The notes under the pieces are model-generated. The model was not told the origin of the DNA. It worked only from the letters and a program-made list of their open reading frames with translations, and ran no database searches. A program made the position numbers and the translations under genes. DNA of 64,000 nucleotides from Solitalea longa (GTDB lineage Bacteria; Bacteroidota; Bacteroidia; Sphingobacteriales; Sphingobacteriaceae): the NCBI RefSeq assembly GCF_002920915.1, contig NZ_PQVF01000004.1:124001-188000 (forward strand), read 5' to 3'. Below, piece by piece: positions 47,223-48,775 of the stretch (position 1 is the stretch's first letter; each line of letters begins with the position of its first letter).

Positions 47223-47228
47223 GGGATT

Positions 47229-47340
47229 GTTTTATTGTTTTATTGTTTTATTGTTTTATTGTTTTATTGTTTTATTGTTTTATTGTTTTATTGTTTTATT
47301 GTTTTATTGTTTTATTGTTTTATTGTTTTATTGTTTTACA
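47229..47340. repeat. 8-bp tandem satellite, 13 perfect copies plus a partial
   Basis: The unit GTTTTATT is repeated perfectly 13 times (47229-47332) followed by a degenerate copy. It lies in the 222-bp gap between the ubiX-like stop and the mtaB start, 77 bp before the mtaB ATG. An open frame over it (LLFYCFIV peptides) is an artefact of the repeat. Copy-number change would alter promoter spacing or leader length of mtaB. Confidence 0.95.
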
Positions 47341-47374: not shown

Positions 47375-47935
47375 TTAATTCCCCCACCTATATGTTTCAT
47401 CTTCTAATCCGATCAAATCAATTATCCGATTAATCACGGTAAGCGCTATTTCTTCGTGTGACTGTGGTTTGCTATAGAAAGAAGGGCTTGCGGGACAAAT
47501 AATCCCTCCCGCTTCTGTTACCGTTTTCATATTATTAATATGAATAAGGCTCAATGGTGTTTCCCTGGTAATCAATATTAGTCTGCGACGTTCTTTAAGT
47601 ATTACATCTGCGGCTCGTGTAATCAAATCATCAGAAACTCCTGCTGCAATTCGAGCTAAGGTACCCATTGAACAGGGAGCAATGATCATGGTATTAAACT
47701 TTGCTGAGCCAGATGCAAAAGGAGCCATAAAGTCTTTCTTGTCGTAGAATTTAAATGGATATTGTTGATATGAGTTATTATCCAATTCAAACTCCCAAAC
47801 CTGTTTTGCGTTATCAGACATTACTATCCCAACATCATCAATCTGTTTATTTAACTGCATGAGTTTATCAAGCAATACTTTTGCATAAACTGAACCGCTT
47901 GCCCCTGTTATGGCCAATATAATTTTATGTCTCAT
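47375..47935 (-). CDS. ubiX: UbiX family flavin prenyltransferase
   Basis: 186 residues, typical. The enzyme makes prenylated FMN for UbiD-type decarboxylases. The N-terminal ILAITGASGSVYAK is the flavin-binding motif; IIAPCSMGTLARIAAGVSDDLITRAADV and ERRRLILITRETPLSLIHI are diagnostic of the family. No UbiD partner is encoded next to it. ATG at 47935. Confidence 0.93.
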   Translation of the reverse strand: MRHKIILAITGASGSVYAKVLLDKLMQLNKQIDDVGIVMSDNAKQVWEFELDNNSYQQYPFKFYDKKDFMAPFASGSAKFNTMIIAPCSMGTLARIAAGVSDDLITRAADVILKERRRLILITRETPLSLIHINNMKTVTEAGGIICPASPSFYSKPQSHEEIALTVINRIIDLIGLEDETYRWGN

Positions 47936-48063: not shown

Positions 48064-48133
48064 TAAAAAAAGGGCCGATTAATCTCTTAATCGACCCCAC
48101 ATCTACCTATGAAAAACATGCCCTGGGTGGGCA
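48064..48133 (-). ncRNA. Candidate small RNA of about 70 nt
   Basis: On the minus strand, a TACTTTTG box (plus 48137-48144; exact TAnnTTTG) is followed at the expected distance by a 5' hairpin (TGCCC 48119-48123 with GGGCA 48129-48133). A single-stranded stretch of about 20 nt comes next, then an intrinsic terminator: an 11-bp stem (48072-48082 with 48087-48097; one G-U) and an eight-U tract (48064-48071). No minus-strand gene lies upstream that would need this terminator, because the neighbours are divergent (ubiX at 47935 and a plus-strand thioredoxin at 48193). The -33 element is weak. It may belong to a known Bacteroidota RNA class (for example Flavo-1) but I could not test that. Confidence 0.6.
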
Positions 48134-48192
48134 CTACAAAAGTAGAAAGATTTACCAGATTATTAAAATAATTTATAAAAAAAGTTAAGCAT

Positions 48193-48729
48193 ATGCGTTT
48201 TAAATCCTTTAAAAAGCGTTTTCCAATACCCTTAATGGCCTTTTTAATACTGTCTAATTTTTGTTACAGTCAACAGAAAAATGAAATTAGATGGTTAAAC
48301 ATGCAAGAAGTTGAAGCACTTATGAAAAAGAAACCTAAGAAGATTTTAATTGATGTTTATACTGACTGGTGTGGTTGGTGCAAAACCATGGACAAAAAAA
48401 CATACCTGAATGAAGGTGTTATTGAAATAATTAACAGGGACTATTACGCAGTAAAATTTAACGCTGAAACCAGAGATACGATTACGTTTAACAATAAGGT
48501 ATATGCTTATAATCCTAACTACCGTTGTAACGAATTAGCAGCGGCTTTATTGAATGGTCAGATGTCGTATCCCAATACGGTGTTTATGGATGAAAAACTT
48601 CAAGTACTAACTGCTGTTGCCGGTTTTGTAAATAGCGATGAGTTTATTCCTATTCTGAATTACTTTGGAGAAAACCACTATTTAAAGAAGAAATGGGAAG
48701 AGTATAAATCGACTTTACAAAAAATGTAA
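48193..48729 (+). CDS. Secreted thioredoxin-fold protein
   Basis: 178 residues. A signal peptide of about 26 residues (hydrophobic core, NFCYSQ). A single thioredoxin-like domain of the DUF255/SoxW-like type follows with IDVYTDWCGWCKTMDKKTY as the active-site region (CGWC). It should act in the periplasm on disulfides. It is convergent with the coiled-coil gene at 48776 and shares a bidirectional terminator with it. The ATG at 48193 is preceded by an AT-rich leader. Confidence 0.88.
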   Translation: MRFKSFKKRFPIPLMAFLILSNFCYSQQKNEIRWLNMQEVEALMKKKPKKILIDVYTDWCGWCKTMDKKTYLNEGVIEIINRDYYAVKFNAETRDTITFNNKVYAYNPNYRCNELAAALLNGQMSYPNTVFMDEKLQVLTAVAGFVNSDEFIPILNYFGENHYLKKKWEEYKSTLQKM

Positions 48730-48734
48730 AAGCA

Positions 48735-48769
48735 AAGAAGCCTTTCAAAATTAAGTTGAAAGGCTTCTT
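48735..48769. terminator. Bidirectional terminator
   Basis: 14-bp perfect stem (48735-48748 with 48756-48769), 7-nt loop, between two convergent genes. Confidence 0.85.
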
Positions 48770-48775
48770 CTATTA

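Follow-up and report, generated by a model that had tools for sequence, protein, structure and literature searches.

The DNA analysed here, referred to as the window, is a stretch of 64,000 nt from Solitalea longa, in which a candidate small RNA gene lies on the minus strand at 48144-48064. The first-pass annotation, made from the sequence alone, had proposed at this place an exact TAnnTTTG box, a hairpin directly behind it and a terminator ending in an eight-U tract. The box is present as TACTTTTG (48144-48137, minus strand), an exact match to the housekeeping -7 consensus of Bacteroides, which also occurs in Flavobacterium johnsoniae (PMC7366714). Two nucleotides on from this housekeeping-type promoter box begins the 5' hairpin GUGCCC-ACCCA-GGGCAU (48134-48118, minus strand, 17 nt), assigned from the fold and from covariation in relatives, with a 6-bp stem (48134-48129 with 48123-48118) and a C-rich loop, ACCCA (48128-48124). 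The hairpin is followed by the 20-nt core GUUUUUCAUAGGUAGAUGUG (48117-48098, minus strand), the presumed seed, which is nearly invariant among relatives, resembles FopS R1' and is mostly unpaired in the predicted fold, where a weak 4-bp helix appears in the minimum-energy structure and is absent from the centroid. The terminator itself stands, as a hairpin with an 11-bp stem and a GAGA loop (48097-48072, minus strand; fold and covariation), while the eight U's do not: the sequence reads seven (48071-48065, minus strand), then an A and three more U's. The predicted RNA, with its 5' end placed from the box and its 3' end from the U run, would be about 70-72 nt long (48065..48136, minus strand), and a 73-nt stretch has a folding energy of -27.3 kcal/mol, where 200 dinucleotide shuffles give -15.66 +- 2.64 (z = -4.41) and none folds as well.

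The next gene downstream, on the same strand after a gap of about 130 nt, encodes a UbiX-like flavoprotein (47375..47935, minus strand), and the thioredoxin-like gene (48193..48729, plus strand) is divergent and an upstream neighbour only, so the earlier remark that no minus-strand protein gene needs a terminator here holds. A search with Rfam models, which had been recommended as a check, returned no Rfam 15 family at its gathering cut-off anywhere in the 64-kb window. Two further features of the neighbourhood were recorded: a perfect 8-bp tandem repeat, ATTGTTTT, in 14.1 copies (47226-47338) between a methylthiotransferase-like gene and ubiX, where strain-to-strain length variation is possible, and a 14-15 bp hairpin (48734-48770) between the thioredoxin-like gene and a 128-aa ORF, scoring as a terminator on both strands.

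A DNA search found close relatives of the locus in all four genomes of the window's genus, and further copies found in this way had the linker in common and not the hairpins. MAFFT alone misaligned the 5' hairpin (alignments A1 and A2), and the first covariance model, R1, was therefore built from three cleanly aligned copies (A4). At E <= 0.01, R1 matched 110 of 121 Sphingobacteriaceae genomes (103 of the 111 well-assembled ones), with a match in 20 of 25 genera; the 11 genomes lacking a match at this threshold include all drawn members of two well-assembled genera, g3 (three genomes) and g17 (both). Matching genomes carry 1-11 copies, many of them one and Solitalea longa five. The second model, R2, built from 95 rows, many of them from genomes afterwards searched with it, matched 150 of 151 genomes in a draw by order, which contained Sphingobacteriaceae alone and shared genomes with the first draw. 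When 295 genomes of the class were drawn, R2 matched 19, namely ten of Sphingobacteriaceae and nine others, mostly weak, and in a draw of 296 genomes of the phylum the eight matches at E <= 0.001 were all Sphingobacteriaceae. Three of the model matches (L325, L326 and L327) appear to be genuine copies and three (L329, L331 and L335) retain a shorter or altered core; the out-of-family matches L328, L330, L332, L333 and L334 (E 0.0008-0.009), together with L336, a second match in a member, were set aside as chance terminators by their appearance.

An exact search for 19 bases of the core in contigs of named genomes gave at least 120 stretches, and the genera among the matches listed are Pedobacter, Mucilaginibacter, Sphingobacterium, Parapedobacter, Daejeonella, Olivibacter, Desertivirga, Arcticibacter and relatives, alongside one Flavihumibacter record and some Bacteroidetes MAGs. 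In viral contigs an exact 18-mer of the core had three matches, with hairpins poor or absent, a number close to the estimated chance expectation, and these were discarded. The RNA family matched no Rfam 15 family, and no description of it was found in the literature searched, a coverage outside which most subscription papers lie. Beyond what the first-pass annotation had proposed, the comparisons point to a multicopy family, to a FopS-like seed and to three apparent promoter types among the copies.

The RNA is structured, and its hairpins vary while the core stays near-constant; comparison of copies is a stronger test of this than the fold of the window copy. In an alignment of 86 distinct copies, standard pairs fill 95.3% of cells (80.1 in shuffles), and both partners change in 16 of 17 pairs. 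Covariation scores 0.510, where shuffled alignments give 0.218 +- 0.009 and sliding the pairing never gives more than 0.091; for another set, of 18 copies, the score is 0.834 against 0.268. Both hairpins contribute, the 5' hairpin with 93.6% of cells paired and both-side changes in all six pairs over the 86 copies, the terminator stem with 96.2% and both-side changes in 10 of 11 pairs. Because the later alignments were fitted to the first model and are biased towards its structure, more weight lies on the slid and shuffled controls than on the raw percentages. Loss of the hairpins in relatives had been named as grounds for abandoning the proposal; by covariation, both are kept.

The core, GUUUUUCAUAGGUAGAUGU, averages 1.96 of 2 bits per column over 20 columns, compared with 0.95-1.20 bits in the stems and 1.39 in the loop. 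Its usual form in the family reads ATGTTTTTCATAGGTAGATGTAGGG, of which the first two bases belong to the 5' stem, and its complement is ACAUCUACCU-AUG-AAAAAC, containing AUGAAAAAC. The stretch of about 20 unpaired nucleotides once suggested as a possible seed has thus turned out to be the nearly invariant part of the family. Some copies allow short reading frames, from AUGUUUUUCAUAGG or, in other genera, AUGCCCUCCC...UAG, from which a tiny peptide might be encoded; the core columns, however, have no third-position freedom, and hairpin lengths do not vary by multiples of three, which means that a frame through the 5' hairpin is not kept, and we regard a coding role as highly improbable.

The regions upstream of the copies fall into three promoter-like classes. 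The counts refer to 211 usable distinct upstream regions and to 836 control windows lying 50-140 nt farther upstream; removed beforehand were L263_1563 (a target), L201_2344 and L289_4969 (weak), duplicate regions and five with too little upstream sequence. The exact housekeeping box occurs in 131 regions against 13 control windows, and ends 2-3 nt ahead of the stem in 127 of 136 measured boxes, five of which lie in short regions. The pattern TGGCA-N5/6-TTG, found in 31 regions and in no control window, ends 10-13 nt before the stem. A third pattern, TGNAAC or CGNAAC followed after 14-18 nt by NGTA, was found in 19 regions and three control windows, having been widened once after three near misses were noticed, and ends 5-8 nt before the stem. 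From the known consensus sequences, we take the second pattern to be of sigma-54 type, although the base after TTG frequently differs from the C of the usual sigma-54 consensus, and the third to be of ECF type. Two regions that fit two classes (L261 and L290) were scored as housekeeping, and 30 of the 211 contain none of the three patterns. In each of the three classes, these distances would put the transcription start close to the foot of the 5' hairpin.

Four genomes (G008, G032, G065 and G084) have all three classes among their fetched copies, and a pattern search recognised no promoter ahead of the other four copies in the Solitalea longa genome. The sample of copies is uneven, extra ones having been deliberately fetched from multicopy genomes. 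In the set from named genomes, 24 of 102 new regions among the matches listed are of sigma-54 type, 17 of them from Mucilaginibacter records, and none is of ECF type; before regions already counted were removed, the ECF type accounted for 3 of 119 among the matches listed (L199, L274 and L292). The ECF class therefore rests mainly on the first, multicopy-enriched sample. Tandem arrays of three or four RNA copies within about 1 kb were also seen: four copies in Mucilaginibacter endophyticus (L278), all behind sigma-54-type boxes, three in M. pedocola (L264), two of sigma-54 type by pattern, and three of ECF type in genome G075 (L090).

Genomic context was assessed in 113 rows (111 distinct), and no copy lies inside an ORF of at least 90 aa, partial overlaps with ORF ends not being scored as inside. 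In 45 of the 113, a ubiX homologue lies downstream on the same strand, and this ubiX-linked position looks like the ancestral place of the family. Together with the gap of about 130 nt in the window, it might also suggest a cis-acting leader or attenuator of ubiX; this we think very unlikely, as 68 of the 113 copies precede other genes, 34 have their next gene on the opposite strand, and elsewhere the same structure follows boxes of ECF and sigma-54 type. That the copies are dispersed and sometimes tandem (L264, L278) might likewise suggest a mobile repeat that carries a terminator and has no RNA function, an idea to which we attach hardly any weight given the ubiX-linked copy in many genera, the covariation, the near-invariant core and the three promoter-like classes positioned at the 5' stem. 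By sequence evidence, the element has the free-standing promoter and terminator outside coding sequence expected of a trans-acting small RNA gene, and it is very probably a genuine small-RNA gene; comparison across relatives supports the original suggestion of a complete small-RNA gene with its own promoter and terminator.

The closest known counterpart is FopS of Bacteroides (RF04319, BTncRNA_FopS). Both RNAs are short and multicopy, with a TAnnTTTG promoter, a 3' terminator and an unpaired seed that contains UGUUUUUCAUAG, with UAGAU a few bases on, and whose complement includes AUGAAAAAC. The R1' consensus of FopS is given as GTGTTTTTCATAGTATTAGATTTAAGGTTAACAAA (PMC11697453). The 12-mer UGUUUUUCAUAG is common to the core and to the R1' seed, GUGUUUUUCAUAGUAUUAGAUUUAAGG..., with 25 of 20000 shuffles yielding a match as long or longer, and the remainder of the core aligns to R1' with gaps; this is suggestive of common descent and not proof of it. 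The differences are equally clear: FopS has its seed at the very 5' end with no 5' hairpin, in contrast to the covarying hairpin ahead of the core in this family; its seed continues as UAUUAGAUUUAAGG, unlike the core, and its 14 copies in B. thetaiotaomicron have housekeeping promoters, whereas copies of this family often have others.

RF04319 (cut-off 56 bits) has no match in the window or in the ten same-family genomes listed among the 295 of the class, and for eight copy-bearing loci it yields no row even at E <= 5; it passes its cut-off in all four Bacteroidales loci and in 8 of the 295 class genomes. In the other direction, the model of the family finds 13 of 17 FopS loci, picked from 70 for promoter and terminator, weakly (E 0.0043 to 0.82). 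By the tests run, then, the family is FopS-like in sequence yet no member of FopS. Outside both groups, loci in other families were seen by eye to combine a terminator with UUUUCAUAGGU or something close to it, together with a hairpin or a bare end. This is a hint that a seed is common to the class Bacteroidia, whether by descent or by convergence on the same target. Five loci from other Bacteroidia families (L448, L449, L450, L454 and L461), below the RF04319 cut-off and in genomes unreported by R2, have UUUUUCAUAG-type cores and terminators and may be further branches. Separately, the exact FopS seed TTTTTCATAGTATTAGAT was found in 66 predicted viral contigs (L367-L432, IMG/VR) and in Bacteroides phage BX-TP2 (L433); by eye, many of the viral contigs have a terminator-like hairpin after the seed and some no preceding TTTG box, so FopS-like RNAs seem to be common on phage-like DNA.

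Other known RNAs are more distant. GibS (RF04182) has the R1 seed in common with FopS and pairs at start codons (PMC7366714). It differs in its 142-position model, its second seed, R2, and its middle hairpins, and RF04182 (cut-off 115 bits, R1 and R2 seeds) gave no row for the window or the eight loci. Permissive Rfam searches of eight and of six loci returned rows below cut-off only, the best weak score being that of suhB/mmgR (RF00519, cut-off 41), with 23.8 bits for the window copy (L001) and 21.1 bits for L003; this family is alphaproteobacterial, has a similar hairpin-linker outline and was compared with the window copy through the Rfam alignment. In mode of working, with no sequence relation claimed, the RNA may be compared with MicA and RybB of Escherichia coli, small RNAs that are controlled by an ECF sigma factor, act on the start region of the messages they repress and depend on Hfq. 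Neither Hfq nor RRM_1 (PF00076) has a match in the Solitalea longa genome; control genomes respond for Hfq and the controls Bacteroides ihuae and Synechococcus elongatus give a match for RRM_1. RbpB (RRM-1), the partner of FopS, thus has no counterpart found in this genome, and any chaperone needed would be another protein.

Gene anatomy, covariation, conservation, distribution, promoter-like classes and the resemblance of the seed to FopS are all read from sequence; the account that follows adds by inference that the RNA is transcribed, which sigma factors it uses, that it pairs and represses, which messages it targets and what its 5' hairpin does. The housekeeping sigma factor would start transcription at the foot of the 5' hairpin, which is probably a cap shielding the 5' end and which, with the terminator, would flank a 20-nt single-stranded core. 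This core would pair with mRNAs over the start codon (AUGAAAAA... and the preceding bases, ideally AUCUACCU) and so block the initiation of translation. Other copies retain the core nearly letter for letter while their hairpins change freely, and in several genera ECF-type or sigma-54-type promoters may drive them. With the same core under several promoter types, one repression seed would be the common output of several stress or state signals. We consider it likely that the locus encodes a trans-acting small RNA of about 70 nt that acts in this way. It most likely works like FopS, which was found by probing and translation assays to base-pair over the start codon of susC mRNA and to repress this message (PMC11697453).

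A preference of the core for start regions was sought in 877 genes from Sphingobacteriaceae loci and the window, with L263 excluded and the first ATG taken as the start. The core binds more strongly at start regions than inside genes (difference -0.54 kcal/mol), and shuffled cores do the reverse (+0.46 +- 0.37), 1 of 120 being as low; in the comparison with upstream regions 3 of 120 are as low; the FopS seed shows a like trend on the same genes, less clearly (7 and 4 of 120 shuffles). Taken alone, the start regions of 400 sampled non-SusC genes are unremarkable, 8 of 60 shuffles being as good. This preference and the complementarity of the core to AUGAAAAA speak against a different reading, in which the core is kept as a protein-binding site and the RNA, with no core-mRNA pairing, acts as a sponge for a ribosome component or for a protein that binds RNA. 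Twenty near-invariant columns in 86 distinct copies exceed, in our judgement, what most pairing seeds need, and the 5' part of the B. thetaiotaomicron FopS sRNAs binds RbpB (PMC11697453); against these points stand the start-region preference, the lack of any RRM_1 or Hfq match in Solitalea longa and the pairing of the related FopS core with susC, and we judge a sponge unlikely.

For the pairing seed, a broader reading is offered tentatively and, with all its parts taken together, falls somewhat short of probable: a Bacteroidia-wide start-codon seed, UUUUUCAUAG, would be carried on lineage-specific scaffolds (equally tentatively, with a bare 5' end in Bacteroidales and a hairpin cap in Sphingobacteriaceae), and in Sphingobacteriaceae would stand behind three promoter types that share a translation-blocking output, without Hfq or RRM_1 in at least this genome. 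Post-transcriptional control in Bacteroidota is little known beyond gut Bacteroides, and a covarying small RNA with a FopS-like seed in most genomes of a large soil and water family would carry the start-codon mechanism far beyond the gut and offer a marker for testing it there. The authors of the FopS study suggested that paralogous sRNAs might answer to different sigma factors and observed no strong sub-diversification among FopS members (PMC11697453); three promoter-like classes, even within single genomes, make this question directly testable, and a constant seed behind three kinds of putative promoter is the part most deserving of specialist attention.

Candidate targets were sought in several gene sets. 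Comparing 30 SusC with 55 other gene starts gave P = 0.019, yet 11% of shuffled cores did equally well and the strongest duplexes formed with non-SusC genes; in a wider set, 7 of 60 shuffles matched the SusC preference and every SusC start stayed weaker than -12 kcal/mol. These results do not single out SusC genes as the principal targets, the trend across both gene sets being weak at most. Searching the four genus genomes for the complement with at most three mismatches gave 78 forward and 67 reverse matches, compared with 54 and 53 for the reversed pattern, a modest excess in which some of the matches are sRNA copies, so no strong target is known in the genus.

Among the matches listed, 123 exact cores lie in 120 stretches (118 were assigned to sRNAs by an automatic terminator test and four more by eye), and the one outside an sRNA falls exactly over a start codon in Mucilaginibacter endophyticus (L263). 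There, the core has a perfect complement at the start of an alpha/beta-hydrolase-like ORF, and of the four RNA copies of the same species in L278, two match the hydrolase start over 21 bases and two over 18. The reductase-like ORF preceding the hydrolase has a near match to the core at its start region. Both functions were named by eye from the sequence, and the two adjacent ORFs (L263:584-2399) are candidate natural targets.
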